From contig NZ_JAFLWW010000018.1 in NCBI RefSeq assembly GCF_018555685.1, positions 1-41,944 on the forward strand: DNA of 41,944 bases, given 5' to 3'. The notes beneath the pieces were generated by a model, which was not told the origin of the DNA, did not search any database, and worked only from the letters and a program-made list of their open reading frames with translations. The DNA is from Aminobacter anthyllidis. GTDB lineage: Bacteria; Pseudomonadota; Alphaproteobacteria; Rhizobiales; Rhizobiaceae. Below are positions 2,395 to 32,159 of the stretch, piece by piece. The first letter of the stretch is position 1; every line of letters begins with the position of its first letter. A program made the position numbers and the translations under genes.

Positions 2395-2913
2395 TCAGCT
2401 ATCGACAAGGAGGGTGGCAATTTCGCTTGCCATGATCATTTCGTAGCCAATGCGCCCATCGAGGGTAACGCCAGTCGCCCGGAAGCTGCAGCTCCGGTAG
2501 AAGGCCAAGGCGTGTTCGTTTCCAGTATTTACAGACAACATCAACAGCGAAACTGCCGGGCGGTTGTCAGCCACCCATTGCGCCATCTTCCGGATCGTGG
2601 CGGCGCCGAGGCCCTGACGCTGGAACTGTCTGCTGATCCGAAAGTTGTGCAGCGTCATCACGCCCGGGAAGGCCCAGTCGGGCAGCGCCGGCGCTTCTCG
2701 GAGAACGAAAAAGCCAATCGGGCTATCAGCCTGGGTAACGCTGAATGGATGAATGGATTCCTGATGCGGGCTGCATCGGAGGCGATCGAAGATTTCCCGG
2801 ATTTGTCCGCCTGAGAACTCCTCTTGGTCCCCGTCAACATCAATTGCTGTCGCGAGTTCTTCGTCGGAGAGCAGAAGCTTATCGAGGCACAGCTCAAAGT
2901 TTGACGGCCTCAC
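2395..2913 (-). CDS. GNAT family N-acetyltransferase
   Basis: The 172-residue product has the acetyl-CoA-binding motif A of GNAT enzymes, ISRQFQRQGLGAATIRKMAQ (R/Q-x-x-G-x-G/A pattern), preceded by a beta-strand (MTLHNFRI) and followed by the motif B region (LSVNTGNEHALAFYRSCSF). The start is a GTG two bases after the luxI stop, with GGAG eight bases upstream, so it is translationally coupled to luxI and is the last gene of a luxR-luxI-GNAT operon. It should transfer an acyl group from an acyl-CoA to an amine. The substrate cannot be read from sequence; modification of a quorum-controlled product, or of self or signal molecules, is inference from position. Confidence 0.75.
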   Translation of the reverse strand: MRPSNFELCLDKLLLSDEELATAIDVDGDQEEFSGGQIREIFDRLRCSPHQESIHPFSVTQADSPIGFFVLREAPALPDWAFPGVMTLHNFRISRQFQRQGLGAATIRKMAQWVADNRPAVSLLMLSVNTGNEHALAFYRSCSFRATGVTLDGRIGYEMIMASEIATLLVDS

Positions 2914-2915: not shown

Positions 2916-3566
2916 CTATTGCTCCGCGTCCGTCGCACGGGTCGGGGGTAGCGCACCCGCCATATGCAAAACCGATCCTTCTATGCCGTAAGAGCGTCTG
3001 GTGGCGTCCAGCGCCGTTTGCGTAACCTCGATGAGTGCGGCAACTATTTCGCAGTCGTCAAGCTGCAGTCGTTCGCCCAGGATCGCCACCGACCAGCCCA
3101 GCGATCTCAGTCGCTCCGGCCAGAACGCCTCGCAAACGACGCTGATCTGTCGGGTTCCCAACTGCAAGCTAGCCTCGAGCAGACCGCAGAGCACCTCCCC
3201 CGCCAGGCGGGCGGGTTTGCCCGCTGTACGATAGGGGAATGCAACGAAGAAGCGGGTCCATTCATGGATGTCGGGAGCGCGAGGTGGCGAGCCATTGGCG
3301 AGTTGTGGAAAGACATCACCCAGCAGGTGTGGGCGGGTCGTTGGGACCAACCTGGAACCGCCTATGACGTCGCCGGAGCTATCCAGAGCGAGCAGGTAAA
3401 TTGCATGTTCCGTATCGAACGCGTCCATCTCGATGTCGATAGGCCGGGCAAGCGCCTGCCACTTTCTTTCGGCTACGTAGATTTCGTGACGCAGTCGGAA
3501 ATGTCTCTCCAGCTGCCTCTGAAACAGCCTCCGGTTTGACCAATCGACGACGACGATGCGACCCAT
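2916..3566 (-). CDS. Acyl-homoserine-lactone synthase (LuxI/TraI family)
   Basis: LuxI enzymes make N-acyl-homoserine lactones from S-adenosylmethionine and acyl-ACP. The 216-residue product has the family's invariant residues in order: R26 in RLRHEIY, W36, D48 and D51 in DIEMDAFDTEHAIYL, R72 in GGSRL, and E102/R105 in HEWTRF. ATG at 3566 has GGAGG upstream. It lies 42 bases downstream of luxR on the same strand and two bases before the GNAT gene. On Ti-like plasmids traI heads the trb operon; here it is 25 kb away from trbB. The acyl chain made cannot be inferred. Confidence 0.92.
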   Translation of the reverse strand: MGRIVVVDWSNRRLFQRQLERHFRLRHEIYVAERKWQALARPIDIEMDAFDTEHAIYLLALDSSGDVIGGSRLVPTTRPHLLGDVFPQLANGSPPRAPDIHEWTRFFVAFPYRTAGKPARLAGEVLCGLLEASLQLGTRQISVVCEAFWPERLRSLGWSVAILGERLQLDDCEIVAALIEVTQTALDATRRSYGIEGSVLHMAGALPPTRATDAEQ

Positions 3567-3608: not shown

Positions 3609-4406
3609 CTATCGCCAGATCTTGTCATTGCCCGCCTGGATTTCACCAAGAACCAGTCCCTTGGTGATCGCTCGCTGGACGTTGTTTGCGCCCAGCTTTT
3701 CGCGGATGTGGCGGAGATGCGACTGAACCGTATATGTCGACACGTTCAAAATGATCGCGATGACTTCCGCGGATTTACCCGCAGCACTCCACTGAAGCAC
3801 TTCTGCTTCTCGTTGCCCCAGGATTGGCCCGCATTCGAGGTCAAGGAGCCCCTCAAGGCGACATATGGCTTGAAAGGCTTTCAGGCACAGAGCTTCGACC
3901 AGAGGCCGGGCAAATGGAGATAGCTCTATTCTGTCCCCGGCCGCTGTCACCACTGCAGGTCCCCGGAAGGGGATATGGATTGGTACGCACAGCCCGTCGT
4001 TCATCGCAAAGTCCCGCGCCTCGTCCATCACCAGTTTTGCGCGCGGCGACATGGCCTCGGGCCGCAGGTCGCTCCAAAGGAAGGGAAAAACTCGATTCCG
4101 GCATCGAGCGACGCAAGGGTCATGCTGAAAATGCCCCTCCTCGACGTAACGACGATACCAGTCCTGACGCCATCCATCGCAGAGGACCTCGCGGTGCCAA
4201 TATCGATCCTCCGGAACGGGCAGACCGGTGATCAGGAGGTCGCTGAAACCATAACGCGCAAGATGGCCCTGCAGGGTCTTCAGGACCTCGGCTGTGGTCT
4301 TGATCTCGGAAATCTCCGAAGCTGCCTGGCCGAGTTGAAGGATTAATCTTTCGTCTTCGATCCGTATCGTAGGCCTCCCAAGGCGTGGACAGCATAAAGG
4401 AAGCAA
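3609..4406 (-). CDS. LuxR-family quorum-sensing regulator
   Basis: The 265-residue product has an N-terminal autoinducer-binding domain and a C-terminal LuxR HTH. The acyl-HSL pocket pattern is visible in residues ~70-115: W-x4-Y (WRQDWYRRY), then HDP and FLWSDL, matching W57/Y61/D70/W85 of TraR. The HTH near the C-terminus reads LGQREAEVLQWSAAGKSAEV, then TVQSHLRHIREKLGANN. The longest start is a TTG at 4406 with no strong ribosome site and no ATG nearby in frame, so the start is uncertain. It precedes luxI by 42 bases, so it is probably its cognate receptor. Confidence 0.88.
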   Translation of the reverse strand: MLPLCCPRLGRPTIRIEDERLILQLGQAASEISEIKTTAEVLKTLQGHLARYGFSDLLITGLPVPEDRYWHREVLCDGWRQDWYRRYVEEGHFQHDPCVARCRNRVFPFLWSDLRPEAMSPRAKLVMDEARDFAMNDGLCVPIHIPFRGPAVVTAAGDRIELSPFARPLVEALCLKAFQAICRLEGLLDLECGPILGQREAEVLQWSAAGKSAEVIAIILNVSTYTVQSHLRHIREKLGANNVQRAITKGLVLGEIQAGNDKIWR

Positions 4407-4543: not shown

Positions 4544-4804
4544 TCAACCTTCTTCTTTGTCATCATGGTCAGGCGTGGCGTCGGCCTCGAATGCGCTGGA
4601 TGGTGTGATCAGCTCGAAGCCTTCTACCCCAAGGGCCCTTGCCAGGATTTCCAGAGTGTCCAACGTTGCATTGCGGCGCCCGGTTTCGACGCTGCTGACG
4701 TACGCACGCGAGAGGCCGGATAGAAGTGAGAGCCGCTCTTGCGACAAGTCCCGCTCCTTGCGCAGCCGACGCACGTTCAAGCCCAGTCGATGACGTAGAT
4801 CCAT
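4544..4804 (-). CDS. XRE-family HTH transcriptional regulator
   Basis: Eighty-six residues with a textbook Cro/CI-type HTH at about 8-63: LGLNVRRLRKERDLSQERLS, then LLSGLSRAYVSSVETGRRNA and LDTLEILARALGV. The tail is acidic (HDDKEEG). It starts at ATG 4804 behind a near-consensus sigma-70 promoter (4828-4856). It lies 137 bases upstream of luxR on the same strand and divergent from the ORF at 4929 and the threonine-synthase-like gene. It is well placed to control both directions through the inverted repeat at 4864-4892. Small-ligand binding is not evident because no sensor domain is present. Confidence 0.85.
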   Translation of the reverse strand: MDLRHRLGLNVRRLRKERDLSQERLSLLSGLSRAYVSSVETGRRNATLDTLEILARALGVEGFELITPSSAFEADATPDHDDKEEG

Positions 4805-4928: not shown

Positions 4929-5081
4929 ATGAAGCAGGTGTCTCAGCCGCAGAAGTTCAATTGCGCTACGTCTGAAGACCATGAAAAGCATTGGTGTAGA
5001 CTGGCCATCCCATTTGCTCCGCACGCTCTGGTTCTCGTAGCTGCTGTTACATTCATGCCCGTGGTGGGGTTCCAGTCGTGA
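4929..5081 (+). CDS. Small ORF (50 aa) coupled to the threonine-synthase-like gene
   Basis: An ATG at 4929 preceded by GAGAGGAACG opens a 50-codon frame. Its TGA stop (5079-5081) overlaps the GTG start of the next gene (5078-5080), a GTGA coupling arrangement. The product begins polar (MKQVSQPQKFNC, then a Glu/Asp/His stretch) with two cysteines. It ends in a hydrophobic segment, LAIPFAPHALVLVAAVTF, that could span the membrane. I do not recognise the family. It may be a small membrane protein, a leader peptide that sets translation of the enzyme, or a precursor peptide. The ribosome site and exact overlap support translation. Confidence 0.45.
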   Translation: MKQVSQPQKFNCATSEDHEKHWCRLAIPFAPHALVLVAAVTFMPVVGFQS

Positions 5082-6325
5082 GCGCTGTAATGGGCTATTC
5101 CTGCATCAGGTGCGAGACACATTATCCCGCATCGATGACGATCGACTCCAGGGGATGTCCGATCTGTGCGCCGGTCGCCCCCGCCAACTTGGCACCAATT
5201 TACGGGCAGGCAGTGGTTGGCGGCACTGTTGCCGGGGAAGAACAGAGTCGTTCGTCCTTGTGGAAAAGCGGCCCAAGGCTGCCATGCACGGGCACCGACA
5301 TCGTCACCTTGGGCGAAGGGCAGACGCCCCTGCTCTCCTGTCCTCGGATCGGCTCATCATTGGGCACAACCAACCTTTTCATAAAGGATGAGAGCCGTAA
5401 TCCGACATGGTCTTACAAGGACCGGTTCTCTACCGTCGCGGTATCGATTGCACGTGCGCAGGGCGCCAAGGTAGTGGCCACCGCTTCATCCGGCAATGCT
5501 GGTGCTTCGCTTGCCGCTTACGCTGCAAGAGCAGACATGGACTGCGTCGTGGCAACATTTGCGGGCACGGCCGGCGCCATGCTTTCCCAGATCAGGAAAC
5601 ACGGCGCCATAGTCATTCCGCTGGTCAATAAGGTGGACAGATGGAAGTTCCTCGCTGAAGCGCAGGAGCGGTTTGGCTGGTTTATCACGTCTCCCTTCAG
5701 CGCTCCTGTCGTCGGTGGTCATCCGCTTGCCATCGAGGGCTACAAGACGATCGCATACGAAATCATCGAACAACGAGCCGGTGAAGTTCCAGACTGGTGC
5801 GTCATGCCAGTCTGCTATGGCGACGCTCTCTCGGGCGTGTGGGCTGGGTTCAGGGAGCTCTATTGCGACGGCCTCATCGACCGCTTGCCAAAAATGGTTG
5901 CGGCAGAGGTTCACGGCTCACTGTCGGCCTCTCTCGCTCGAGGAACCGATCACGTTCTGGAGCAGGAGGTTCGGTTCGACCCTCTCGCCGTTTCGATTGG
6001 CACATCGCGTAGTACGTACCAGGCGCTCAAGGCACTTCGGGAATCGTCAGGCCAGGCGGTACCGGTATCCAACGATGGGCTGATCGACATGCAGTCGCTC
6101 CTCGCCAGGAGAGAGGGGATTTTTGCAGAACTCGCATCGGTCACCCCTCTCATGGCGATAAGGACGCTGGCTGATCGTGGCCTGATTGCTACACGCGACA
6201 GTGTCGTTGCGGTCGTTACTGCTGGTGGCCTGAAGGACCTCGATCGATCGGCCCCGCAGGAGGCGCGCTATGCGACATTCGACACGACTGCGGATGCCTG
6301 GAACTGGTTCATGAATGGCCAGTGA
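5078..6325 (+). CDS. Threonine-synthase-like PLP enzyme
   Basis: The 415-residue product is a fold-type II PLP enzyme of the ThrC group. It starts with a zinc-ribbon (C9-x2-C12 and C27-P-x-C30), then TLGEGQTPLL, then the PLP lysine loop NPTWSYKDRFS with K114, the phosphate and substrate loop ATASSGNAGASLAAYAAR, and a C-terminal VVTAGGLKDL. Classical ThrC turns O-phospho-L-homoserine into L-threonine. Homologues with a zinc-ribbon are common, but plasmid copies may act on other phospho-amino acids. GTG at 5078 overlaps the stop of the 50-aa ORF; ATG at 5090 is an alternative start. It converges on the CysK-like gene with 27 bases between stops. Confidence 0.85.
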   Translation: MSAVMGYSCIRCETHYPASMTIDSRGCPICAPVAPANLAPIYGQAVVGGTVAGEEQSRSSLWKSGPRLPCTGTDIVTLGEGQTPLLSCPRIGSSLGTTNLFIKDESRNPTWSYKDRFSTVAVSIARAQGAKVVATASSGNAGASLAAYAARADMDCVVATFAGTAGAMLSQIRKHGAIVIPLVNKVDRWKFLAEAQERFGWFITSPFSAPVVGGHPLAIEGYKTIAYEIIEQRAGEVPDWCVMPVCYGDALSGVWAGFRELYCDGLIDRLPKMVAAEVHGSLSASLARGTDHVLEQEVRFDPLAVSIGTSRSTYQALKALRESSGQAVPVSNDGLIDMQSLLARREGIFAELASVTPLMAIRTLADRGLIATRDSVVAVVTAGGLKDLDRSAPQEARYATFDTTADAWNWFMNGQ

Positions 6326-6352
6326 CGTTTTCCCATCATTCGGAACTACGGC

Positions 6353-7390
6353 TCAGCCTTCCGTTGACTGGAGGCGCATCACATCCTCAAGACGACGTCG
6401 ACGCCATTCGAAACGGGTCCACGCTGTCTCAGATCTGGGTTCAATTCTGGAGATTTTCGTCGGGGTGGTGGATGCGGGGGTCCTCCAGCCAGGCAGGGTG
6501 GAAAGCCAGATGTCGCTGTAAACGGTGTCGGCATGCCGATGGCCTTCATCAGGCATGATCACAGCGATCCGTGCGTCCGGGCTCGTCTTGCTCACCCACT
6601 GACCGACAAGGGCGGCGGCGCCACTGGTTGGGCCCATGAATATCCCATGCTGCCGGAACAAGCGGTGGGCGGCATGGAATGCCGGATATGCACCGACCCA
6701 GTGGATTTCGTCTATCAACTCGTGGCGCACATTTCGGGGCAAGACACTGTTGCCGAGGCCTCGAAGCACTCGTTTTCCGAGCGGTTGTCCAAACAAGATG
6801 CTGCGGTGGGTGTCGACGCCAATGATCCTGAGATGGGGGAAAACCCTTCGCAAGAAAGTGCCGGTACCGCAGAGCGACCCGCCAGTTCCTATGCATCCGA
6901 CCAGGCAGTCTATCTGGCCCATTGCGCGCACAAAAAGATCAGCCAAACGGGCGTAAGCCAGCCAATTTCCATCACTGTCGTACTGCCGTGTCCAAAAGGC
7001 CTCCGGCTCCCGGTGCAATATGCTGCCCAGATTATCGAGCCGGCCAGTCTGGTTGCCGTCACCCCGGGGATCGTCAAGTGCAATGACCTCGGCTCCCAGG
7101 CGCTGAAGTCGTGCCTGATACTTGGGATCCATCAGGCTTGAGGCGGTGACGAGCGTCAAACGATAGCCACGCGCAGCCGCAAGGAGTGCCACCGCCATCC
7201 CGAATGTGCCTGAGGTCGTCTCGACAATATGCGCATTCCTTTTGATCTCGCCTGATGCTTCAGCCCGATCGAGGATGAAGCGGGCGGGCATCAGTTTCAT
7301 CAGCGGGAAAGCTGCGGCAACGACGTTCTCTGCCAGCCGAGCCATGCGAGGCGTCTCGAGTGCCTCGAAATAGTCTGCATCAAATCTCAA
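6353..7390 (-). CDS. CysK-fold PLP enzyme (cysteine synthase family, divergent)
   Basis: The longer open frame to 7558 only overlaps the kinase gene. The TTG at 7390 is chosen because GGAGG lies just upstream and conserved sequence begins there, giving 345 residues. It is a fold-type II PLP enzyme. The PLP lysine is probably K32 in FPLMKLMPARFILDRAE, aligning with the S-V-K-D-R element of CysK. The substrate loop is ETTSGTFGMAV, where most sulfhydrylases have TSGNTG, so the usual Asn is Thr. A phosphate-binding GTGGSLCGTG follows. It should do beta-replacement or elimination on an activated serine or threonine. It overlaps the kinase stop by 11 bases. Confidence 0.82.
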   Translation of the reverse strand: MRFDADYFEALETPRMARLAENVVAAAFPLMKLMPARFILDRAEASGEIKRNAHIVETTSGTFGMAVALLAAARGYRLTLVTASSLMDPKYQARLQRLGAEVIALDDPRGDGNQTGRLDNLGSILHREPEAFWTRQYDSDGNWLAYARLADLFVRAMGQIDCLVGCIGTGGSLCGTGTFLRRVFPHLRIIGVDTHRSILFGQPLGKRVLRGLGNSVLPRNVRHELIDEIHWVGAYPAFHAAHRLFRQHGIFMGPTSGAAALVGQWVSKTSPDARIAVIMPDEGHRHADTVYSDIWLSTLPGWRTPASTTPTKISRIEPRSETAWTRFEWRRRRLEDVMRLQSTEG

Positions 7391-8345
7391 CTGCGCCTCC
7401 CCCCGAATAGATCGGCTGCACAACGACGTCTTTGAAGCCGGCCGCGGTCGCCGCCTCTGCAATGTTGCGCGACGCATCGGCGATGCGGACCGCCGATGCG
7501 TCCAGGATGATCCCAATGAGAGATCCGCTATGGGCGACCTGAACTCCGCAGGCGTCAAACTGGTCGGCGATGGCCAAGGCAGTCGCGAATTGCGCCTTGG
7601 CGAGATGGCGCTGACTGATCTTTGCGCTGAGTGTCGCGGCCTGCCCCAATAGCCGCGGGTCCTGAAATCGTATCGAGCGCGCAGCCAGCCCTCTCAACAT
7701 TGAAAATGTCTGGATTTCCTCACTGGAGTAGCGAGCCGGCGGCAAGGCAAGCGTATCGACCAACTGACCGTCATTCGCTTTGAAACCTATGACCCGGATC
7801 GGCGGCAGTGCGTCGCCAAAATGCTCGATCACCAAGCCTTCACGCTGGGCAAACAAAACAGCCTGGTCCTCAAAAGCTATCGCGTCACTGGCTTGCTCGG
7901 CCTCGACTGCCAAGCGAGAGATGACCGAGGGCCGAAGCCCCATCTCGAATGCATAGGCAACAGCTCGTATCGTGGCAACGACATCGGCGGTGGAGGAGCC
8001 ATATCCATGGCCGACTGGAATCGTGCTTTCAACAGTGAGCAGGCCGCCTCGATTATGTTCGTTGAGGTGTCTCAGGGTTAGCGATGCTGCTTTTGCAGCC
8101 TTCGTCTTCTCCGGTGGCATCACCTTGACCCCTTGGCCGTCGGTGATCCGGAAAATCGCAAGGGAACTCATGTGACTGAGTGGGAGCGTGACCAATCCAC
8201 GATGAAGCCGTCCCCTCTGATCCTGGAAGACGCCCTGGATCAGCTCGCCGTGATGTGCGCCGGCCCGGCCCGCTCCCGATCGGTTTACGCGGAGGGCATT
8301 GGTCGACGAAGCTGGTGGGTGAGGAGAACTCTCAGGCCTTGTCAC
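7380..8345 (-). CDS. GHMP-family kinase, PduX-like (L-threonine kinase candidate)
   Basis: The 321-residue product carries GHMP motifs in the arrangement of PduX: HHGELIQGVF near the N-terminus, the ATP loop PVGHGYGSSTADVVATIRA (PduX-type SSTAD), and a C-terminal AHSGSLIGIILD. PduX phosphorylates L-threonine to O-phospho-L-threonine for cobalamin side-chain synthesis. GTG at 8345 has AAGGAG seven bases upstream. No cobalamin gene is present in this window. Instead the gene overlaps a CysK-like PLP enzyme and faces a ThrC-like one, suggesting that the phospho-amino acid is used for something else. Substrate serine or homoserine is also possible. Confidence 0.78.
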   Translation of the reverse strand: MTRPESSPHPPASSTNALRVNRSGAGRAGAHHGELIQGVFQDQRGRLHRGLVTLPLSHMSSLAIFRITDGQGVKVMPPEKTKAAKAASLTLRHLNEHNRGGLLTVESTIPVGHGYGSSTADVVATIRAVAYAFEMGLRPSVISRLAVEAEQASDAIAFEDQAVLFAQREGLVIEHFGDALPPIRVIGFKANDGQLVDTLALPPARYSSEEIQTFSMLRGLAARSIRFQDPRLLGQAATLSAKISQRHLAKAQFATALAIADQFDACGVQVAHSGSLIGIILDASAVRIADASRNIAEAATAAGFKDVVVQPIYSGGGAVEI

Positions 8346-8481
8346 TTCTCATCTCCTTCCATGGGCTGGATGAGAAGCTGGTCGAGCGAGACGGCTCTGT
8401 CACTCGCCACATTTGGCGATTGACCCCGTTTCAAGGCCGCTGATTTATGCTTTTGTCATAGGCGCGAGATCTCTGGGTTCC

Positions 8482-10284: not shown

Positions 10285-11331
10285 TCAAAGCGTCGCCAGG
10301 CGGGCATTGGACATTGCCATTCCATAGGCTTGTCTTAGCGCGAACTTTTCTTCCAGCGCATCAATGACGGTTGCAGCAAAATCCGCTTTGTACATGGTGG
10401 CGAGCCTTGTCAGCCCGCCTGGCGTGAAGACGTTGATCTCAAGGAGTTTGTCGCCGACAATGTCGAGCCCGACGAGAAACATGCCGTCGTTCACCAGTTT
10501 CGGGCGCACAATCTCGGCCAGGGCCAACATCCTGTCCGTTACCTTGACCTTCCGCGCAGTCCCAGCTGCATGGATGTTGGACCGAACATCGCCTTTGGCC
10601 GGCACCCGGCGAAAGGCCGCATAGCTGCCATCCCGCTTCAGCGGTCGGCCGTTTAGGAGGAATAGACGCACGTCACCTGCTTTAGCCTCGGGAATGTAGG
10701 CCTGGGCGATCAGATAGCCATCACCACTCGCCGCCTCAAAAATCTGGTTCAGATTGGAATCATCAGGGGTTGCGATATGGAAGACATTCTTGCCGCCCGA
10801 TCCCTGTAACGGCTTGACGATACAGCCCTTCGGCTGATTTTCGATGAAAGCGCGTATTTCGGTGATGCTGCGTGATATCAGCGTTGCGGGCCTGACTATC
10901 TCGGGGAAGGCCTGGAGGTAGAGCTTGTTCTGCGCTTGGGCCAGTCCGTCCGGATCATTGACCACAATCACGCCGCGTTCCGCGGCAAGGCGCCCAAACA
11001 TGATGCCAGCATTGGCGGCCCATGGTCGTTCTGTAGCGTCGAGCGAGGGGTCATTGCGCAGAAACAATAGATCGATATCGCCTACGGTGAAGGTTTTCTT
11101 CTGGGCATTTGCCTCCAGCAGGGCCGTGTGCAGCTTTTCAGGGGTCTTGTAGGGGGCGGCCGGCAAAACCACGCCGCTGATAGCGAGGCTGTCATCCGGC
11201 CGAAGGATGAAGTCGCCGGGTTCTACATAAACAACCGAATGCCCACGCTGAACTGCCGTCAGGGCAAGTGTGGTCGTCGTGTAGCCTGCAGTTTCTTTCT
11301 CAACCGAATTGACAAAGAGGGCAATGCGCAT
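10285..11331 (-). CDS. GshB-like ATP-grasp ligase
   Basis: The 348-residue product is an ATP-grasp enzyme of the glutathione-synthetase (GshB) type. It has an N-terminal Rossmann-like domain (MRIALFVNSVEKETAGYTTT), a central ATP-binding part with CIVKPLQGSGGKNVF, the DVRLFLLNGRPLKRDGSYAA strand pair, and the metal-binding LLEINVFTPGG near 308-320. ATP-grasp ligases join a carboxylate to an amine through an acyl phosphate. It is the last gene of a three-gene operon, 12 bases after the DUF1704 gene, so it probably acts with that peptidase and the amidohydrolase rather than in glutathione synthesis. Substrate unknown. Confidence 0.82.
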   Translation of the reverse strand: MRIALFVNSVEKETAGYTTTTLALTAVQRGHSVVYVEPGDFILRPDDSLAISGVVLPAAPYKTPEKLHTALLEANAQKKTFTVGDIDLLFLRNDPSLDATERPWAANAGIMFGRLAAERGVIVVNDPDGLAQAQNKLYLQAFPEIVRPATLISRSITEIRAFIENQPKGCIVKPLQGSGGKNVFHIATPDDSNLNQIFEAASGDGYLIAQAYIPEAKAGDVRLFLLNGRPLKRDGSYAAFRRVPAKGDVRSNIHAAGTARKVKVTDRMLALAEIVRPKLVNDGMFLVGLDIVGDKLLEINVFTPGGLTRLATMYKADFAATVIDALEEKFALRQAYGMAMSNARLATL

Positions 11332-11343
11332 CGGGGACTCCAG

Positions 11344-13212
11344 TCATGTTTCAATCATGTCGATCGGATCCATCCCGGCCATCGCCTTCTTGAGGCGCGG
11401 CCGCGCGACTTCCGATGAAAGGAACGCCGGTTCGAGTCGCGGGGCTCGTAGTAAGCCGCGCGCGCTCAGTTCCGTGATGATGCCAAAATGGTCGGCAGAG
11501 ATCTTGCCGATCCAGAAAGGTGTCAGGCTGCCGCCGTTCCTTAGATGATCAAGCACTTGCACTACGCCGCGCAAATAGATGGCGTCTTTGGCAAAGCCGC
11601 CGCTGCGGAAAACACGCAACACCACGTTGAAGGCACTACGGCGGTCGAGACCGAAATCCGCATGGAGGACACGGAAGGTTTCCTCAAACCTCGCCCCGTC
11701 AAGCATCGCCTGGCATGCGAGAACCCTCGCCGCAATCAGCCGCAACCTTGCCGCAGTCATGCCGCCGACGAGATATTCCGCCAACACCGCCAGCCCTTCC
11801 TGCATGCCCTCATAGCCGGCCAAGCCGCTGCGCAGGATGGCAAGTCCCTGCATGTCGCCGTTGAAGTAGGTCAACAGGTGAACACCGATCTCGTGGCTGA
11901 GCAACGCCATCAGACGCTCCGGTGCGAGCCTGGTATCACGCGAGACGAGAAGCCGGTTTCGAGAGACCAGCAGGCCGGCGGGCAAATCCGAGCGAATTTC
12001 CACGGAGGCTTCGAAGTCGGGGGAGGCAGCCCTATATCGGGCGATCATTTCTCGCGCTGCAGCAGCAACGGAATCCGCGCCGAGGCATTTCTGCTTGGCC
12101 TTCGGCTCAAGGCCAGTTGCCTTATCGAGAATGCCTAGAGCCCTTGCAGCGAGCTCCGGCTCGACGCTTCCGTAAAGGGCGCGCCCGAGTTCAGCGAAGC
12201 GAGGGGTTTCGCGCGCCGCCAGCATCGACAGTTGGAGGTCAAGTTCTTGCTGTTTTTCGGAAAGCAGTCCGGCAAGGAGGGGATCTTCAAGATGATCGAG
12301 CGAGACGGAGTAGAGTTTCCGCTTCTCCGTGGTGACCTCGAACTCGAGCGGCCGATATAGCAGCGGTGGCGCGCGCTCGAACCCCCCTGCCTCGAACTCC
12401 AGCCAAGCTTGCTCTGCATTGATCGGTGTAACGGCAAGCAGGAAGTCGAAAGCCGATGCAACCTTGTCTATGTCCCGATCGGCACGGGCAACTGCGTCAA
12501 TGAAGACCCGGCGCCCCAGTGAACGATGGGTTGTTGGTGCTTCGAGTTGCGATGCCTTGAGGAAGGCGCTGACTGCCTGCAGCGCGGAGTCGACCATGTT
12601 GGCCACGACAAGGTCGCGCAAGGCGGGATACGTGCCTTTTCCGCCGGGCGCTCGATAGATCGGCGCAAAACGCACGGTCAGGCACGGTATGTCGACGAGA
12701 ATATCTGAAAGCAGTGGCTCTTCGAATGCGGCTGGGTTGAAGTCGCCGACGCGCGGTGTCCTGTACTTTGCCTCTCGCTTGGAGGCAGCGGCCGCGAACC
12801 GTTTGAGCGCAGCCTTTTCTGCTGTCGTGTCTCCGCCCGCCAGTGCAATTTCGAAAGGTGGCAGGAACGGTGCGTCGTCGGTTAGGAAGCGGTCTTCTGC
12901 CAGTTCGCCGATGTCGATGATCAAAAACGAACCGCAGCGATCATGCATCGATGTCGCCACCAGCCGGGCTACTTCGCCGGCGAGGTTGGAACCCGTCGCG
13001 ATCAAGTAGGAGGCACTGGCCGAGACGGCGTCGAATGCCGCATCATGACCGGGTCCCACGTAAACGCAGAGAAAGGGAAGCGGCCGGTCTATGTGCAAAC
13101 GGCAGGCACCCGCGAAATCCTGACGAATGGGCTTGCCCTCTTTCAGCAACGCATCGAGGCCCGCTTCGATTGGGGCCAGGTGTGATGCCTCGTCAACGAG
13201 CCTCGGCTTCAT
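11344..13212 (-). CDS. DUF1704 'QEGLA' metallopeptidase-like protein
   Basis: ATG at 13212 overlaps the stop of the upstream gene (ATGA), so this start (622 residues) is preferred over a longer frame to 13350. The protein has the HExxxH zinc motif HEIGVH at about 439-444 and, about 30 residues later, GMQEGLAVLAEY, whose Glu is the expected third ligand. This is the DUF1704 family, often labelled flavohemoglobin expression-modulating QEGLA protein. The eukaryotic members (MATCAP) are tyrosine carboxypeptidases. It is probably a cytoplasmic peptidase; its bacterial substrate is not established. It is the middle gene of the amidohydrolase-DUF1704-ATP-grasp operon. Confidence 0.85.
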   Translation of the reverse strand: MKPRLVDEASHLAPIEAGLDALLKEGKPIRQDFAGACRLHIDRPLPFLCVYVGPGHDAAFDAVSASASYLIATGSNLAGEVARLVATSMHDRCGSFLIIDIGELAEDRFLTDDAPFLPPFEIALAGGDTTAEKAALKRFAAAASKREAKYRTPRVGDFNPAAFEEPLLSDILVDIPCLTVRFAPIYRAPGGKGTYPALRDLVVANMVDSALQAVSAFLKASQLEAPTTHRSLGRRVFIDAVARADRDIDKVASAFDFLLAVTPINAEQAWLEFEAGGFERAPPLLYRPLEFEVTTEKRKLYSVSLDHLEDPLLAGLLSEKQQELDLQLSMLAARETPRFAELGRALYGSVEPELAARALGILDKATGLEPKAKQKCLGADSVAAAAREMIARYRAASPDFEASVEIRSDLPAGLLVSRNRLLVSRDTRLAPERLMALLSHEIGVHLLTYFNGDMQGLAILRSGLAGYEGMQEGLAVLAEYLVGGMTAARLRLIAARVLACQAMLDGARFEETFRVLHADFGLDRRSAFNVVLRVFRSGGFAKDAIYLRGVVQVLDHLRNGGSLTPFWIGKISADHFGIITELSARGLLRAPRLEPAFLSSEVARPRLKKAMAGMDPIDMIET

Positions 13213-14105
13213 CCGAAGCCTCGCAGCGCAGCCTCTAGGACGGGCACTGTGGACGCCAGCATAGTGCGCAGCTGGTCGATCGTTGCCTGGTCGGGATCGC
13301 CGCTCCATTCGTCCATGAAAATCTTCTTGAACTCGACTGCAATGGCGCATCCGGTTTTGGGGAAATTGGCATGGACGAACCGTGTTTGTTCGCCTTTGCC
13401 CTGGAAAGACACATTTTCGCGAATGTCGATAGGCTTGCCGTTGAGTGAGTGGCCACGCAGCGTCTCGATGAATGGGGCGACAATTGGCGCCCAGCGCTCT
13501 CGGTCCATAGAGAACGTGCCGATGTTGATATCGGGCGCTTCTTCCTGCGATGTAGGTATAACCTCCGGCCCGCCGCGCCGGTGATTGTAGCTGTGGACGT
13601 CGATAAGCACGAACCTGCCGTGTCGGTTTTCGATTTCCGTCAGCACACGCTTCAGCTCGGCGTAATAGGCATCGTGGAAGGCGAGAGCTTCCGTCACGAT
13701 GTCTTCGGAGGGCTGCTGTTGCCAGACTTTCAGACCCCAGGATTGTTCTGGCGACAGGTAGATCGCGGCGTCACGCGCGCGATTCAGGTCGACCTGAAAA
13801 CGCGACCGATGAACAGTGATCTGGGTCGGGAAATCGGCAATGAAGTGCTCAGTGAAAGGGTCTTCCTCGCGCAGGCGTTCCGGGTCTGGGAGACACATCA
13901 GTGATCGGCAGGTACTGTCCACGTCTGTACCGTTGTGGATAGCGGTGCCAACCACCGGTGAATCGCCCAGCTTGATGGTCCAGCCTGGTGATCCGTCCGG
14001 ATCTATCGTTGAAATTGCCCAGTTCACTCCTTCGAAATGCGCGGAGGGGTTGGACGGTTCCCGGTCGTAGTGAAGCAAATGGTGCTTAGGCGCCGGGCGT
14101 GCCAC
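13209..14105 (-). CDS. N-formylglutamate amidohydrolase family protein
   Basis: The 298-residue product matches the HutG-type N-formylglutamate deformylase family by two motifs: ITVHRSRFQVDLNRARDAAI and VLIDVHSYNHRRGG, the second holding the metal-binding histidines. HutG removes formate from N-formyl-L-glutamate in histidine degradation, but no hut genes are here. Its partners are a DUF1704 peptidase, overlapping by four bases, and an ATP-grasp ligase. A related amide hydrolysis on a peptide or modified amino acid is more likely than histidine catabolism (inference). GTG at 14105 is the longest start and has a weak ribosome site. Confidence 0.82.
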   Translation of the reverse strand: MARPAPKHHLLHYDREPSNPSAHFEGVNWAISTIDPDGSPGWTIKLGDSPVVGTAIHNGTDVDSTCRSLMCLPDPERLREEDPFTEHFIADFPTQITVHRSRFQVDLNRARDAAIYLSPEQSWGLKVWQQQPSEDIVTEALAFHDAYYAELKRVLTEIENRHGRFVLIDVHSYNHRRGGPEVIPTSQEEAPDINIGTFSMDRERWAPIVAPFIETLRGHSLNGKPIDIRENVSFQGKGEQTRFVHANFPKTGCAIAVEFKKIFMDEWSGDPDQATIDQLRTMLASTVPVLEAALRGFG

Positions 14106-17247: not shown

Positions 17248-17949
17248 TCAGATAATTCTTTTGTCTTTTGCGATTGAAACGGCCTGCACCAAATTGGTCG
17301 CGTCAAGTTTCTTGCGGGCATTGTCGAGATAGAACTGGACGGTTCGATACTGGAGATTCGTGATGAGTGAGATCTCTCGCATGTACTTGCCCTTCGCTGC
17401 CCATTTTAAGCATACGGCCTCTTGAGATGACAGGCTCAAAGAACAACTCACGAGCTCGGTGTCGGCGATAGCGCGTAGCCGATGATGTATGTACAGGACG
17501 GCCTGTTCCGCTCGCGCCACGCTGCCAATCGTCGGACTTGTCGCCTGCGCAGTTGTGAGTGACAGCATCAGGATGCTGCCATAGCTGCCCTCCACCGGAA
17601 TCGTCAGCCCGGAGTGGAGGCCGTATTGCTTGGCCATGGAGCGGAACCGCTTTTCTTCGGTCGTGAGATAGCGGCTTGGCCAATCCTGAGCAGACCAGGC
17701 GAACATTTGCATGAGGCGCTTTGCCATTGTGACGACCGGGTCGATACGCGCAAACTGGCTTTCCAGATAGTCATTCTGCCACTCGAGCGGATAACTGTTG
17801 ATCGTAGAAATTTCCTTCGACGTTATCTCAAAATAGGCGAAACGTTCGAAGCCACAGGCAATCGAGAATAATTTCAACGCACTTCTGATCGATCGCTGGT
17901 CGTTCGATGTGTCGAGTGCATCGATGAGTGCCGTGATCTGTCCGTCCAA
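17248..17949 (-). CDS. traR: TraR-like LuxR-family regulator of conjugation
   Basis: The 233-residue product (TraR is 234) has an acyl-HSL-binding domain with all four TraR pocket residues in order: W and Y in EWQNDYL, D in ARIDPVV, and W in MFAWSAQDW. The C-terminal HTH reads LSLSSQEAVCLKWAAKGKYM, then YRTVQFYLDNARKKLDATN. It lies just downstream of the trb operon on the same strand, as traR lies near trb on several rhizobial plasmids. It likely activates trb transcription when bound to the signal from the luxI at 2916. No traM-like antiactivator gene was found in the window. The gene symbol is by similarity and position. Confidence 0.82.
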   Translation of the reverse strand: MDGQITALIDALDTSNDQRSIRSALKLFSIACGFERFAYFEITSKEISTINSYPLEWQNDYLESQFARIDPVVTMAKRLMQMFAWSAQDWPSRYLTTEEKRFRSMAKQYGLHSGLTIPVEGSYGSILMLSLTTAQATSPTIGSVARAEQAVLYIHHRLRAIADTELVSCSLSLSSQEAVCLKWAAKGKYMREISLITNLQYRTVQFYLDNARKKLDATNLVQAVSIAKDKRII

Positions 17950-18022: not shown

Positions 18023-18044
18023 CAATCGCATAATCTGGCGATTG
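18023..18044. promoter_or_regulatory. Inverted repeat CAATCGC-N8-GCGATTG upstream of traR
   Basis: Perfect seven-base arms (18023-18029 and 18038-18044) lie about 74 bases before the TraR-like start. The position suits an operator controlling that gene, either by itself or by another factor. It does not resemble a lux box. Confidence 0.4.
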
Positions 18045-18578: not shown

Positions 18579-19886
18579 TCAACCTCGATAAGCACTTGGA
18601 AAGACAATGTCCTGGTCGACGAGAACGTTGAACTTATAGCCAGGTCGGATTTCGAGGGTAGGTTGGACGTCGAGATTCTTGCTGATGGTGCGTTCAGCGA
18701 CGCGCCCAAAAGTCTCGGCGAAATTCCGCCGGGCGGCATCGGACGCAGTGTCGTGGTTGGCGCGCGTCGATGAATTTGGCACAGCCATGTCGATGCCGGT
18801 GCCGATGATCGCGAGGAGGATCGCCGAGCCGAATGTCTTGAAATAATGGTTGTCGACCTTGTCCTTGAAGCCACCATTGCCTTCAGCGTCTGTGCCCGCC
18901 ATGCCGCCGATCTGCAAAGTCGAGCCGTTCGGAAAGATGATGTCGGTCCAGACAACGAGCACGCGTGATTGGCCGAACGAAACCTCGGCGTCGTAACGGC
19001 CGAAAAGCTTGGTTCCCCGGGGAATGAGCAGACGATGACCGGTGGCACTGTCATAGACGTTCTGACTGACCTGGGCGGTAATGCGGCCGGGCAGGTCGGA
19101 AGTGATGCCGGTGATCAATATCGCCGGTATTACCGAACCGCGTTTCAGTTCGTAGGGCGATTGCTGTGGCAGGAGCTTGTTCGGCAGATAACCGAGTTCC
19201 CTCATGTCAGCGTTGTAGAAGTCTTCCTTGGCGCGCTGGCCATTCGGATCAAGGCTCTGACCGCCGATACCCGCCTGGAGTGCCGCAGCATAGAGATTGG
19301 CAGCCGAGGCAGAGGTAGCCGATGCTGCCGGGGCATTGCCGATGTCCGTCAGTTCGCCCGTTTCGGCCGCTTCAAGCTTGTTGAGGCTGATGGTGAGAGG
19401 CGAGTCATAGGCAGCGTCATTGGCCTGCAACCGTGCCATCTTCTGACGATGGCGCTCACGAATGTATTGCTCGCGCTGCTCACGCTCGAGGCGAGCTTTC
19501 CAGACCTCCTCGGGTTCGCTCTGTTCGACAGATTGCCCATCGCTCCGTGGTCGGGCTTCGAACGGATTGTCGGTCGCCTTCTGCGGCTCCGCCGGAGCAA
19601 TCGGTGACGGTTGCAGTGTGGCCGCTTCAGCCGGCTCACCGATGATACCGTCCGACACTCCACGTTTCAGGTGGTCGGCGAATGTTGATGCCGAGATGTT
19701 CGAGGCGGCGTCGATGGCATCGTCACCACGAAAGAACAGGCCGCGCGACGTCAGGCCAAAGATGATGACGGCGAAGAACAGTATGACCAGAAGGCCGGCC
19801 ACAATCACCGGCAGCCGGTTGAGGCGGCGGATACCAAAGCCGCTCTCCTCGTTTGGCGCACCGCCGAGCTTCAAGGATTGAACCAT
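18579..19886 (-). CDS. trbI: Conjugal transfer protein TrbI
   Basis: TrbI is the VirB10-like energy-transducing component spanning inner and outer membranes in the mating-pair channel. The 435-residue product has a short cytoplasmic start, one membrane helix (LPVIVAGLLVILFFAVIIFG), a Pro/Glu-rich periplasmic linker, and the C-terminal VirB10 domain. That domain includes the RGSVIPAILITGITSDLPG strand region, LLIPRGTKLFGRYDAEVSFG and the ending YKFNVLVDQDIVFP. ATG at 19886 has GGGAGG upstream. It is the last trb gene, 11 bases after trbH. Confidence 0.93.
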   Translation of the reverse strand: MVQSLKLGGAPNEESGFGIRRLNRLPVIVAGLLVILFFAVIIFGLTSRGLFFRGDDAIDAASNISASTFADHLKRGVSDGIIGEPAEAATLQPSPIAPAEPQKATDNPFEARPRSDGQSVEQSEPEEVWKARLEREQREQYIRERHRQKMARLQANDAAYDSPLTISLNKLEAAETGELTDIGNAPAASATSASAANLYAAALQAGIGGQSLDPNGQRAKEDFYNADMRELGYLPNKLLPQQSPYELKRGSVIPAILITGITSDLPGRITAQVSQNVYDSATGHRLLIPRGTKLFGRYDAEVSFGQSRVLVVWTDIIFPNGSTLQIGGMAGTDAEGNGGFKDKVDNHYFKTFGSAILLAIIGTGIDMAVPNSSTRANHDTASDAARRNFAETFGRVAERTISKNLDVQPTLEIRPGYKFNVLVDQDIVFPSAYRG

Positions 19887-19897
19887 GCCTCCCTCCC

Positions 19898-20326
19898 CTA
19901 TCCGCGGCGCATGACTGAGAGCGGACTTGCAGGAGATGCCCCCGACAGTGTCGTCTGGTAAGCGCGTCCGAGTTCAACGGTGCTTGTCGACATTCGCACG
20001 AGGATCTGGCCCTCATGGCTGTCGACGACATAGGCAAGAGGGATCTCTTTCTGGCCGTCCGTTTGCTGGTCCGTGGCGACGGCATAACCCCACCCCTTCA
20101 GCGACGTTTCGAGCGCCTGGCCGAAGGGTGAGCTGTCAGGTTTCAAGATGATGGTGCCGTTTGCCGGGCCAATCTGTTCGGCAAACTTGGTCACCATGTC
20201 GCCTGCAATGGCGCTCGCAGCGGATCCGGAAATCTCAGGCGGCGCTGAACTGGCGACGAGGCCGTCGGTCGTGGACGTCTGACAACCGGCGCACGATAAA
20301 AGCAGAACGGCAAAGGTCCCGCGCAT
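19898..20326 (-). CDS. trbH: Conjugal transfer lipoprotein TrbH
   Basis: The 142-residue protein starts with a short hydrophobic signal ending LLLSCAGC, a lipobox with the lipidated cysteine at about residue 15, so it should be an outer-membrane lipoprotein. It contains an Ala/Ser-rich stretch, then [20 protein letters not shown]-like sequence typical of TrbH. Within the mating-pair apparatus TrbH has the position of the small lipoprotein partner of TrbG, comparable to VirB7. It sits between trbG and trbI with gaps of two and eleven bases. Confidence 0.85.
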
Positions 20327-20328
20327 TC

Positions 20329-21198
20329 TCAGCCCCCTCGCCTGATGGTGATCTTTTCCTGTTTCCAGCCGACCCCCGAGACAAGGACAGCGCGCTCGAC
20401 ATGATAGTCGACCACCATCATGTCGCCTTTCATCCGATAATTGACGACCCGGTTCTCTCCCCCTGAAACTACGAACAGCACCGGAGCATCCTGTCCGGAG
20501 ATCGATCGCGGAAACTGGATGTAGGTCTTGGTCCCGTCGGAATAGACCCGTGTCGGGCGCCAGCGGGCATTGCCGGAGACGGAATAGCCAAAATTCAATT
20601 GCTCAGCCGGAACGCCTGCGCCTGGAACTATGCTTGCTTCGAGCCGTGCGTTCATGTCGGCCAGTTTCGCGCTCACATCTTCCGGATACTCAAACCCGAC
20701 ACGCGCCATATACTGGTTTTGATGCGACTTGAGCTGGATGTGGTAGGTACGTCGTGATGTGGTGACCACCATCGACGTAACAAGATCTGGCTCGGACGGC
20801 TTGACGATCAGGTGGATCGCCTGTCCGCCGATGGCGCCGGAGGTCGCTGGCTCAACCTTCCAGCGCACCGTATCGCCGACCAGTACGTCGCGCACTGCCT
20901 CGCCTGCCTGGAGCTCGATGTCGCAGACCTGCAAGGGCGAGCAGACAACGGAAGGCTGGATTTCGCCATAGAGAAAAATAACCTTGCCGTCGGCGCCCTT
21001 GGTGACGAGGCCCTTCTTTCCGCGCCATTGCCCGGAAATTCCTGTCCCCTTTTGCTCGTTGGCACTCATGCCCTCGGCATGGGCTTTCGGCACAAAGGTT
21101 GGAGCGGCGCAGAGTGCAGCGACGATCGTGGCTGCGACGGGGAGAATTGCACCGACGTTTCTGGTGGCAATGATCATGAGTGGGGCTATGCCTTTCAT
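20329..21198 (-). CDS. trbG: Conjugal transfer protein TrbG
   Basis: TrbG is the VirB9-like outer-membrane-complex subunit. The 289-residue product begins at ATG 21198, which overlaps the trbF stop (ATGA). It has a signal peptide ([20 protein letters not shown], cleavage near AHA). The body is beta-rich and typical of VirB9/CagX proteins: [33 protein letters not shown], then a C-terminal domain with [40 protein letters not shown] and [20 protein letters not shown]. It partners TrbH and TrbI. Confidence 0.93.
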
Positions 21199-21857
21199 AG
21201 CTGAGCGGTCCAGTCGAAGTCGCGCAGGTAAAGACCGATAGGGTTGAGCCGGATGACTCCCTCGTCCTGGGGCGCGGTCAGCGTGACGGTGGCGATGCCG
21301 CGGAAGCGACGCAATGCCGTCTCTTTGCCCTTGCGGTCGCGTTCGAATTCGGTCCAGTCGATCTGGAATGATTGCGGTGAGAGCGCCACGATGTTGTTGA
21401 CCTCGATGGAGACTGTCGCGGTCCTGGCCTTGTCGAAGGGCGAGCTCGATCGGAACCACGCATTGACCTTCTCGGTCGCAGGATCTGACGTCCTCAAGAG
21501 CGCATAGGTACGGTCGATATATTGTTTTTGGACCACCGCATCGGGCGTCACGCTACGGAAATTGGAGACGAAGCTGCCAAGGGTCGCGCGCACGACACGC
21601 GTGTCAGCATATTCAATCTGCTGCGGGAAGCCCGCATGCGCTGAAGTCCCGAGCTTGTCGACTTCCACGATAAAGGGAACGAGCTTGACTTGCGTACTCT
21701 GGAACAGCGCATAGGAGAAGCCGATCACTGCCATGGTCATTCCAGTGATGCCGACGATGCGCCAGCCGGCAGCAGCCCTCACATAGGAGCCGTAGCGCTC
21801 GTTCCATTCCTGGCGAGCGGCGAGATAGGGGTTTTCGGGCGGGTTGCGCTCGGCCAT
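21195..21857 (-). CDS. trbF: Conjugal transfer protein TrbF
   Basis: TrbF is the VirB8-like inner-membrane assembly factor. The true start is ATG 21857 (220 residues); upstream codons of the open frame overlap trbL. The N-terminus has the family signature [20 protein letters not shown], then one membrane helix ([19 protein letters not shown]) and a periplasmic NTF2-like domain with [20 protein letters not shown] and the ending [17 protein letters not shown]. It lies 17 bases after trbL and overlaps trbG by four bases. Confidence 0.93.
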
Positions 21858-21874
21858 GACTGGCGTTCTCCATG

Positions 21875-23065
21875 CTACTTGTTCTCGTTGAGAGGCTGCG
21901 GAGATGGCGCGGGCTTGCCCGGTGGCCTGCTTTGGTCGAGTTTGGCATTGGCAAGCCCGAGCAAAGACCCTGCGTGGGCTCCCGGCGAGGCAATCGCCTT
22001 TTCCTTGGCCGCAGATCCAGCAGCCCATCCTGCATTACCGATGCCAGCGGCCATGCCGCGTAGGGCTGCAGCCGCCATGGAAGAGCCACCTGCTCTGGCC
22101 GCACTTGCCGTCGCAGCGCCACTGGCGGCGGCACTTGCGCCAAGGAAGGCACCACCAGCCGCGAAGGTCGCTGCTTGCCCGCCATGTCGTATCGCCTCCA
22201 TGCCACCGGCGACGGAGGCTCCTTGCACCACACCCTGGAGGATAGCCGGCACGTACATGGCGATGATGAACACGACGACGGCTATGCCGGCGATGGCGAG
22301 TGTGGTGACAAACTGTTCGGACTTGCCCGTCGGTGCGTCAGCCAGACCAAGTAGAACCTCCGAGCCGATCCGCGCGATCATGACCAGCGCCATCAGCTTC
22401 ATCCCGACCGAGAAAGCATAGATGAGGTAGCGAACGGCAAAATCCTTGGTGAAGGACGAGCCGCCGAGGCCGAGCATGATCATGCCGGCGAGAAGGCCAA
22501 CATACATCTCAACGAGGACTGCAACGAAGATCGCCGCGACCAAGCTGAAACAGACGACCACCACGACCATGGCGAAGACGGCGGCGATCGCAAGGGCATT
22601 GTCTTCGAACAAGCCGAACTTTGCCTGTTCAGACATCTTCGAGGCGACGCGGATGCCGGCGTCGAAGATGTTCGCGGGTGATGCTGATCCGCCACTGGCG
22701 CCGATCTGGAAAAGGCTGTCGACGATCGCCTTGGCGAAGCTCGGGCCCTGGTCCAGGATGAATGCGAAGAGGCCAATGAACATGATCCGGCGCACGAGCT
22801 CTCCAAACCAGCTGTCGAGCGAGGCGGTGTTGATCGCGAGCCAGACAGCAGCGATCGCAACCTCGATCCCGGCAAGGATCCAAAACAGCGAACGGGCCGC
22901 GTTCATCACCGTCGTCTGCCAACCACGCGCGGCCGTCACGACTTGGTTCTCGAGTGTGGTCAGCACCGAACCCTGCTGCGCCAACACAGGCGTACTGGCG
23001 AGCAGGATCATGCCGATCACTGTGAAGGCGAGCTGGCAACTGGCGGCTTGTTTGATTGTTACCAT
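21875..23065 (-). CDS. trbL: Conjugal transfer protein TrbL
   Basis: TrbL is the VirB6-like polytopic inner-membrane channel component. The 396-residue protein has a signal-like first helix ([20 protein letters not shown]), then five or six long hydrophobic segments, including [20 protein letters not shown] and [20 protein letters not shown]. An Ala/Gly-rich stretch at 270-345 follows ([20 protein letters not shown], then many AAS/AAG). The C-terminal tail is polar. ATG at 23065 overlaps the trbK stop. The Ala-rich tail is typical of rhizobial TrbL proteins. Confidence 0.93.
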
Positions 23066-26523: not shown

Positions 26524-26536
26524 GGCTCTGTGCCCC

Positions 26537-28167: not shown

Positions 28168-28358
28168 GTCGGATGCCTCATGCCGCTTCGTGACAGGTGG
28201 GGGAAACTTTGGCGCGCGTTGGTCCGAGCAGGACGGGCCAACGCAGCAAGTTCCTCGTCGGTCCTTGAGCAGAACCATGTCTTGCACTCGCCATCGTCCC
28301 CTCAGTCCCCAGCGGTTGGATGGGGACGAAGTCATCACAGATTGCATTTTGGGGAGAG

Positions 28359-32153: not shown

Positions 32154-32159
32154 GCCATC

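Follow-up and report, generated by a model that had tools for sequence, protein, structure and literature searches.

Which small molecule is made, and for whose use, where a PduX-like kinase, a CysK-like pyridoxal phosphate (PLP) enzyme and a ThrC-like PLP enzyme lie together beside a luxR-luxI pair? The question is raised by a stretch of DNA from Aminobacter anthyllidis (contig NZ_JAFLWW010000018.1) that comprises the entire contig, 41,944 bases ending at 41944, and is called the window here. An earlier reading of the sequence alone (the original prediction) had proposed that the kinase activates threonine, that the CysK-like enzyme replaces or eliminates the phosphate, and that the ThrC-like enzyme supplies the threonine. 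The reading that we now favour, and to which we give an even chance, is that of a plasmid module controlled by acyl-homoserine lactone (AHL) that makes a beta-amino-substituted aminobutyrate, with the ThrC-like protein acting as a lyase that re-uses the product. The genes concerned are as follows.

7380..8345, minus strand: GHMP kinase, PduX-like, predicted L-threonine kinase (321 amino acids; GHMP_kinases_N, Pfam)
6353..7390, minus strand: fold-type II PLP enzyme related to SbnA and CysK, predicted to carry out beta-replacement on O-phosphothreonine (345 amino acids; PALP, Pfam)
5078..6325, plus strand: ThrC-like PLP enzyme, predicted product-using lyase (415 amino acids; PALP, Pfam)
4544..4804, minus strand: small HTH_3 (helix-turn-helix) regulator, part of the conserved module (Pfam)
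3609..4406, minus strand: luxR, autoinducer-binding regulator (Autoind_bind/GerE, Pfam)
2916..3566, minus strand: luxI, AHL synthase (Autoind_synth, Pfam)
2395..2913, minus strand: GNAT N-acetyltransferase, candidate for acetylation of the product (Pfam; in Cupriavidus a GNAT domain is part of the PLP protein)

Open reading frames (ORFs) and Pfam domains agree with the original prediction on the 11-base overlap of the kinase and PLP ORFs (7380-7390), the GELIQG and SSTAD motifs, the TSGTFG loop and the converging ThrC-like gene, whose 3' end lies 27 bases from that of the PLP gene. The span 4929..8345 given there is slightly off at its start, because the ATG at 4929 is out of frame and 149 bases upstream of the ThrC-like ORF. 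That ORF starts with GTG at 5078 and the PLP ORF with TTG, while translation of the kinase may begin a short way past the GTG at 8345. The placement next to luxR-luxI is borne out by the Autoind_synth and Autoind_bind/GerE domains and by the luxI genes of 39 of 80 related loci described below.

From the observed gene content, homology, active-site residues, co-conservation and conserved palindrome upstream of the kinase, we infer the reactions, product, nucleophile, lyase activity and LuxR control that follow. The kinase would phosphorylate L-threonine, and the PLP enzyme would swap the beta-phosphate for a nitrogen nucleophile, which may be ammonia, aspartate or some other amine, yielding 2,3-diaminobutyrate or an N-substituted form that the GNAT, where present, may acetylate. 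The ThrC-like enzyme would act on this product, most likely as a beta-lyase releasing 2-oxobutyrate and ammonia, and in many relatives the compound would be brought back into the cell by importers (EhuB-type, other amino-acid ATP-binding cassette (ABC), or Tct) working with an M24 hydrolase or a DoeB-like deacetylase. LuxR with the AHL from LuxI would drive the kinase operon.

Conservation of the module in related genomes

Relatives of the PLP protein, 221 in all, were found in 84,980 species genomes by a pattern-based scan, and the best 80 of these were kept with up to 10 kb on either side (some loci being cut by contig ends) and searched for markers at set score thresholds. The kinase was found in 77 loci, the ThrC-like gene in 54, luxR in 40 and luxI in 39, followed by AceE/transketolase-like (24), M24 hydrolase (21), GNAT (20), ATP-grasp (18), Tct importer (15), DoeB-like (14) and ArgH (14) genes. 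In 74 of the 80 the PLP gene directly follows the kinase gene on one strand, indicating that the arrangement is not due to chance. All 39 luxI loci, all 14 DoeB-like loci and all 21 M24 loci have the ThrC-like gene, which never shares a locus with ArgH (0/80), and ATP-grasp is present in all 14 ArgH-type loci. When the loci were collapsed to 58 under 90% PLP identity, ThrC and ArgH still did not share a locus (0/58) and luxI was always accompanied by ThrC (24/24).

As a less biased check, 297 genomes were drawn evenly from the family. The PLP gene was present in 18 of them and the kinase in 17, all inside those 18; a ThrC-like gene was found in 16 (15 together with the PLP gene) and a luxI-like gene in 19 (14 together with it). 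Conserved co-occurrence across genomes, which the original prediction had named as a check and whose absence it would have taken as a refutation, is thus found in both collections, and the kinase-PLP-ThrC-lux observation is more general than the sequence window alone could show.

The module is present in two of the five listed genomes of the window's own genus, a patchy occurrence that fits mobile DNA; the nearest plasmid-collection records are from Aminobacter, with kinase and PLP protein at 92-93%. Viral contigs scanned with the PLP protein gave five pattern matches, none of them a relative. In a PLP tree of 89 rows, built by a quick method and rooted at the midpoint, the window falls among 32 rows that form a well-supported set, 30 being of lux type, and the ThrC/ArgH trait needs two changes. 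A stretch of Paracoccus saliphilus (L029, 10003-12654) retains kinase, luxR and luxI with the PLP gene only as a fragment and no ThrC-like gene in the stretch, and its module looks decayed.

Gene orders fall into six types. In type A (the window, Aminobacter, Bosea and Mesorhizobium, including plasmid pMLb of the Lotus symbiont Mesorhizobium japonicum MAFF 303099) kinase-PLP faces ThrC, followed by HTH-luxR-luxI, with GNAT, DoeB-like and EhuB-type importer genes sometimes added; complete Ehu-DoeB-GNAT-luxI-luxR-HTH-ThrC-PLP-kinase sets occur in Bosea vaviloviae and Aminobacter MSH1. Type B has the order kinase-PLP-importer-ThrC-M24-HTH-luxR-luxI, and type C is the same without lux (Agrobacterium, Rhizobium). 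Type D, carried by beta-rhizobia and Mesorhizobium AR07, joins kinase-PLP to GNAT and major facilitator superfamily (MFS) genes, with M24, DoeB, ThrC and importer genes on the same plasmid, and Cupriavidus has the GNAT domain fused to its PLP enzyme. Type E is kinase-PLP-ATP-grasp-ArgH (Azospirillum, Streptomyces and others), and type F is kinase-PLP-ATP-grasp with DoeB and ThrC (Shinella, Xaviernesmea, Rhizobium populisoli). Adenylation motifs of non-ribosomal peptide synthetases (NRPS) were found in 4 of the 14 ArgH-type loci plus L006; the remaining 66 loci, L005 and the window have none. The window's own genome has a second set on contig C23 (identity 71% for the PLP enzyme, 61% for the ThrC-like protein and 59% for luxI), with an EhuB-permease-permease-ATPase-DoeB row 8-12 kb away. 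A broken kinase remnant was also seen at C1:985546-985931 (L022), with an integrase-like ORF, recognised by eye, within about 2 kb.

The kinase and the PLP enzyme

The kinase carries the motifs HHGELIQG and GSSTAD and is 30% identical to Salmonella PduX over 66% of the query (E 1e-8), while its matches among solved proteins are mevalonate kinases and weak. Other relatives of the kinase, 43-45% identical, were seen at L123:15907-16794 (Rhizobium johnstonii), L124:15830-16729 (Mesorhizobium huakuii) and L125:14421-15314 (Roseibium). They adjoin genes for a nucleoside triphosphate (NTP) transferase, a CDP-alcohol phosphatidyltransferase and an asparagine-synthase-like protein, with alkaline-phosphatase-family and ABC uptake genes near two of the three. 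Rhizobial plasmids may thus carry a second small-molecule system that is based on phosphothreonine.

For the PLP enzyme the best family is SbnA (TIGR03945), at 192 bits under a cut-off of 349.95, and SbnA is also its nearest solved protein. Arg132, Tyr152 and Ser185 of SbnA are described as key residues for selective O-phosphoserine binding in the parts of the source drawn on here (PMC12414870). Alignment pairs K32, R117, Y137 and G168 of the PLP enzyme with K47, R132, Y152 and S185 of SbnA, so that two of the three phosphate-recognition residues are kept and Ser185 is Gly. The four columns are conserved over 81 aligned PLP proteins (K32, R117 and G168 in 81/81, Y137 in 80/81), and T62 of the TSGTFG loop, present in 77 of the 81, is a family trait. 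The original prediction that a PduX relative stands next to a PLP enzyme resembling those that carry out beta-replacement on phospho-amino acids is upheld by the PduX homology and by SbnA as nearest relative. Given that its own kinase precedes the PLP enzyme, the substrate is probably phosphothreonine. Only columns 83 and 191 differ consistently between 14 ArgH-type and 55 ThrC-type PLP proteins, so that both types probably carry out the same chemistry.

A ThrC-like protein with a probable role other than threonine synthesis

The nearest solved family of the ThrC-like protein is ThrC, yet its score against TIGR00260 is 139 bits, under the cut-off of 167.1, while a true ThrC (287 bits) is encoded elsewhere in the genome at C12:486749. 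The four solved ThrC proteins compared have a common N-S-V-N-P-x-R motif, whose residues hold the substrate phosphate in the Thermus enzyme. The N, S and R columns are changed to V/I, G and G/A in 70 of 71 ThrC-like rows, the remaining row having a gap, in an alignment that includes some near-duplicates; the GNAGN loop is altered as well, and the PLP lysine is kept in 68 of the 71 rows, with 3 gaps. Because of the sub-cut-off score, the lost phosphate motif and the true ThrC on C12, the protein is probably not a threonine synthase.

What it does instead is suggested by its neighbours. Agrobacterium has importer and M24 hydrolase genes in the vicinity of the ThrC-like gene, as do Cupriavidus, Paraburkholderia and Mesorhizobium AR07, which have a DoeB-like gene there too. 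An E1-like gene (AceE family, 203 bits against a cut-off of 860), found in 24 of the 80 loci and in Mesorhizobium mostly beside the kinase, fits the use of 2-oxobutyrate. In relatives, the importers, DoeB-like deacetylase and M24 hydrolase suggest a role in using the product and not in supplying a precursor, and together with the E1-like neighbours and the motif loss they lead us to favour a lyase that would use the product. That it might be a threonine synthase feeding the kinase, as first proposed, is very improbable on these grounds: its nearest solved family is ThrC, but the score, the motif and the real ThrC stand against it, and some relatives sit in catabolic-looking gene rows.

Candidate quorum-sensing control

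The sites and the additional regulator considered for LuxR control are as follows.

8399..8424: near-perfect palindrome of 26 bp upstream of the kinase, candidate LuxR site (three-locus alignment)
3612..3627: degenerate copy of the element with 3 mismatches, upstream of luxI and overlapping the 3' end of luxR
18026..18041: copy with 2 mismatches, second-best in the window, upstream of the second luxR-type gene
17248..17949, minus strand: second luxR-type gene, possible second regulator (Autoind_bind and GerE; no luxI beside it)

The palindrome at 8399-8424 is kept in all three loci aligned (the window, L001 and L034). Its 16-base core has its sole exact match in the 6.7 Mb genome at this site, from which the pattern was itself written, so that the match is no test; with up to 2 mismatches the core matches 85 genomic sites, versus 13 for the reversed pattern. 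At up to 3 mismatches the element gives six matches against three expected, which is not significant, and the copy at 3612..3627 may reflect coding constraint or chance.

In lux loci another palindrome, near ACCGGAATTCCGGT, is found some 60 bases upstream of both luxI and the kinase. It was derived from a simple palindrome scan of the promoters of 17 loci and was then applied to other genes. The scan gave four matches, none in the window; three, in L030 (Bosea), L033 (Aminobacter MSH1) and L054 (Mesorhizobium), lie upstream of luxI. At 11 or more matches out of 14, the motif was found in 14/45 luxI, 13/45 kinase and 2/45 ThrC promoters of lux loci and in 0/38 kinase promoters of non-lux loci, counts that rest on a motif chosen after an exploratory scan and on related rows. 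LuxR control of the kinase operon is thus a prediction from sequence, to which the conserved palindrome lends a candidate site.

The second luxR-type gene adjoins type IV secretion genes, and from this position quorum sensing may also touch plasmid transfer. Four luxI homologs are reported for MAFF 303099, the study covering I1 (PMC10470506), and the main text of a survey of luxI contexts in the genus Rhizobium makes no mention of threonine synthase, GHMP, cysteine synthase or ectoine (PMC13133039).

Accessory genes and evidence against the proposed route

Acetylation, uptake and hydrolysis are carried by genes whose assignments vary in strength. EhuB of the Bosea relative scores 209 over the NCBI cut-off of 190.9, while the two DoeB-like proteins scanned reach 260 and 271 bits, under the cut-off of 402.7. 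The window GNAT was considered as EctA and rejected, there being no EctA model among its NCBIfam matches; the GNATs of L030 and L025 have no NCBIfam match at all, and the nearest solved proteins of the former are spermidine acetyltransferases, with weak similarity. A further group of genes on the contig was considered for uptake:

28885-33613: LysR regulator, M20 peptidase and amino-acid ABC importer, with a binding protein nearest to the lysine/arginine/ornithine type

These genes were rejected as the uptake genes of the module, since the binding protein is 26% like EhuB and another family scores best.

Several observations weigh against an AHL-controlled route of synthesis and re-use. The module is without an ArgH-like gene, which bears on the nucleophile and on whether free diaminobutyrate arises. 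Marker search of the window contig found no deacetylase and no M24 gene, and its importer genes are about 23 kb off, with the 26% EhuB similarity given above. The four M24 proteins scanned against ectoine hydrolase models reach at best 46-88 bits under cut-offs of 575-613. GNAT and M24 are exclusive within the 80 loci (0/80 share a locus), although both occur on shared plasmids in Cupriavidus, Mesorhizobium AR07 and Paraburkholderia; the M24-only type has neither GNAT nor ATP-grasp marker, leaving the make-and-break logic incomplete there; and 29 of the 39 lux loci are without a GNAT marker, some being cut by contig ends. Ehu-DoeB cassettes also occur away from kinase-PLP, as on C25, and a further DoeB cassette lies at the end of C11, where the contig end cuts it; the stretches read on both contigs have no kinase-PLP markers, so that DoeB cassettes are not exclusive to the module. 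In the 297-genome sample, 3 of the 18 PLP genomes are without ThrC (G129, G165, G172), one ThrC genome is without PLP (G226), and five luxI genomes are without PLP. To these are added the exploratory choice of the ACCGGAATTCCGGT-type motif and the lack of any match to it in the window.

Alternative explanations

An extension of the favoured route, which we hold less likely than not, is a self-made, opine-like private nutrient: acetylated 2,3-diaminobutyrate would be released at high density and recovered by module carriers only, through a matching importer, a deacetylase and the ThrC-derived lyase, as a shared nitrogen store; in one variant the ring-closed product would be a five-membered-ring isomer of ectoine. 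ThrC-like proteins classed as threonine synthases would then form a new lyase family. Rather unlikely, in our judgement, is an opine-like N-adduct in which the beta carbon of the threonine skeleton is joined to an amino group from aspartate or some other amino acid and is never cleaved to diaminobutyrate, the adduct serving as metal chelator or nutrient and the ThrC-like enzyme reversing the bond. Such adducts are formed by SbnA; the PLP active-site columns are near-identical to those of the ArgH type, whose lyase would imply an aspartate adduct; ArgH is absent wherever ThrC is present (0/80), and tricarboxylate-type (Tct) importers occur in 15 of the 80 loci. However, GNAT and DoeB-like genes suit an acetyl-diamino acid better, and among the annotated module neighbours no metal-uptake gene was noticed, no search having been aimed at such genes. 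We hold it unlikely that the module makes a toxic or antimetabolite amino acid for export against competitors, the ThrC-like lyase (and GNAT) then serving for self-protection. Density control suits antibiotics, and MFS genes lie near kinase-PLP in Cupriavidus and Mesorhizobium AR07, but importer markers were found in more loci than exporter markers, of which three were used, other exporters not having been searched.

Two further readings concern the pair itself. Fold type II enzymes are capable of elimination and the E1-like gene would take 2-oxobutyrate, so the kinase and PLP enzyme might merely degrade threonine by phosphorylation and beta-elimination; yet threonine dehydratases need one step and no ATP, the same pair looks biosynthetic where it lies with ArgH and NRPS genes, and the ThrC-like, DoeB-like and GNAT genes would stay unexplained, which makes this quite improbable. 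Membership in cobalamin synthesis, with PduX-type phosphothreonine made for CobD, was named in the original prediction as an outcome that would refute it. The kinase is homologous to PduX, but its constant partner is a beta-replacement-type enzyme, and no cobalamin-pathway or pdu gene was found among the annotated neighbours or the 30 window proteins scanned (by Pfam, not every ORF being included), so that this membership is not borne out and is hardly credible.

Other features of the contig

36853-40513: repABC-type replication/partition genes (ParA, RepB and RepC families, Pfam)
18579-28347: type IV secretion genes (TrbI, CagX, VirB8, TrbL/VirB6, TrbE and VirB11-type)

Because repABC-type and type IV secretion genes are present, the contig is taken as a plasmid or part of one. 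A row at 10285-14105 of glutathione synthetase, a QEGLA/MATCAP-family protein and N-formylglutamate amidohydrolase, which has the same order in Aminobacter pAA02, is probably an unrelated conserved peptide-metabolism cluster.

Significance and comparison with known systems

If the proposed route is true, AHL quorum sensing on rhizobial and Aminobacter plasmids controls a defined small-molecule economy, proteins annotated as threonine synthases have a different function, and threonine-to-diaminobutyrate chemistry extends from antibiotic clusters to free amino-acid exchange. The module is found in soil and root-nodule bacteria, and its product is probably an unusual nitrogen-rich amino acid.

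The single proteins differ from their nearest models. The ThrC-like protein is like ThrC in fold and PLP lysine and departs from it in the shared motif, the GNAGN loop and the sub-cut-off score. The PLP enzyme is closest to SbnA of staphyloferrin B synthesis, which makes 2,3-diaminopropionate, and has equivalents of Arg132 and Tyr152, but it scores under the family cut-off, has Gly for Ser185 and TSGT rather than TSGN, and has its own kinase upstream. Relatives resemble ectoine use (EhuABCD, DoeA/DoeB) in EhuB, DoeB-like and GNAT-plus-deacetylase logic. By contrast, the DoeB-like score is below cut-off, the M24 match to DoeA is weak and the predicted product is a 2,3 rather than a 2,4 diamino acid; ectoine-type EhuB and DoeB have no close match in the window contig and are seen near the second copy and in relatives.

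A kinase is part of the DabABC set of friulimicin and laspartomycin, with which the mureidomycin and pacidamycin diaminobutyrate genes are grouped as the closest known system. DabABC resembles the module in its start from L-threonine and its cysteine-synthase-like PLP beta-replacement; DabABC-type traits found in the window are the adjacent kinase and the SbnA-like phosphate residues (2/3) of the PLP enzyme, and the kinase-PLP family with ArgH and NRPS genes in Streptomyces resembles the DabABC setting. This likeness is one of gene set and published description rather than of alignment to named DabA or PacQ proteins. The sections of the sources drawn on here describe 2,3-diaminobutyrate formation from threonine via PLP beta-replacement by DabABC (PMC4052310) and from threonine and ammonia (PMC10714638). 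The earlier statement that no described pathway has this gene set must therefore be amended for the pair, which recurs with ATP-grasp, ArgH and sometimes NRPS genes in a manner fitting the published DabABC route; among the matches listed from open-licence PMC literature, no paper describes the window's gene set as a whole. DabABC differs in that the window is without ArgH, ATP-grasp and NRPS genes, the genome's two ArgH proteins above cut-off being on other contigs, and has ThrC-like, GNAT and luxR-luxI genes, with importer and hydrolase genes in relatives.

Opine and rhizopine systems of Agrobacterium and rhizobia resemble the module in being plasmid genes associated with AHL quorum sensing and, in relatives, in the linkage of uptake and use genes to synthesis genes, from which one shared compound may be supposed. 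They differ in that synthesis would here take place in the bacterium itself, and the module is known from its genes alone. Opine uptake and AHL signalling meet on one plasmid in Agrobacterium, as stated in the part of the source used (PMC3907764), an example that the opine-like reading would follow by analogy. Taken together, the kinase-PLP pair looks like a variant of the diaminobutyrate route, and the core of the module is of a known kind because DabABC-type threonine-to-diaminobutyrate chemistry has been published, the novel part being the lasting association of the pair with quorum sensing, with a ThrC-like protein that is probably not a threonine synthase and, in many relatives, with uptake and hydrolase genes.

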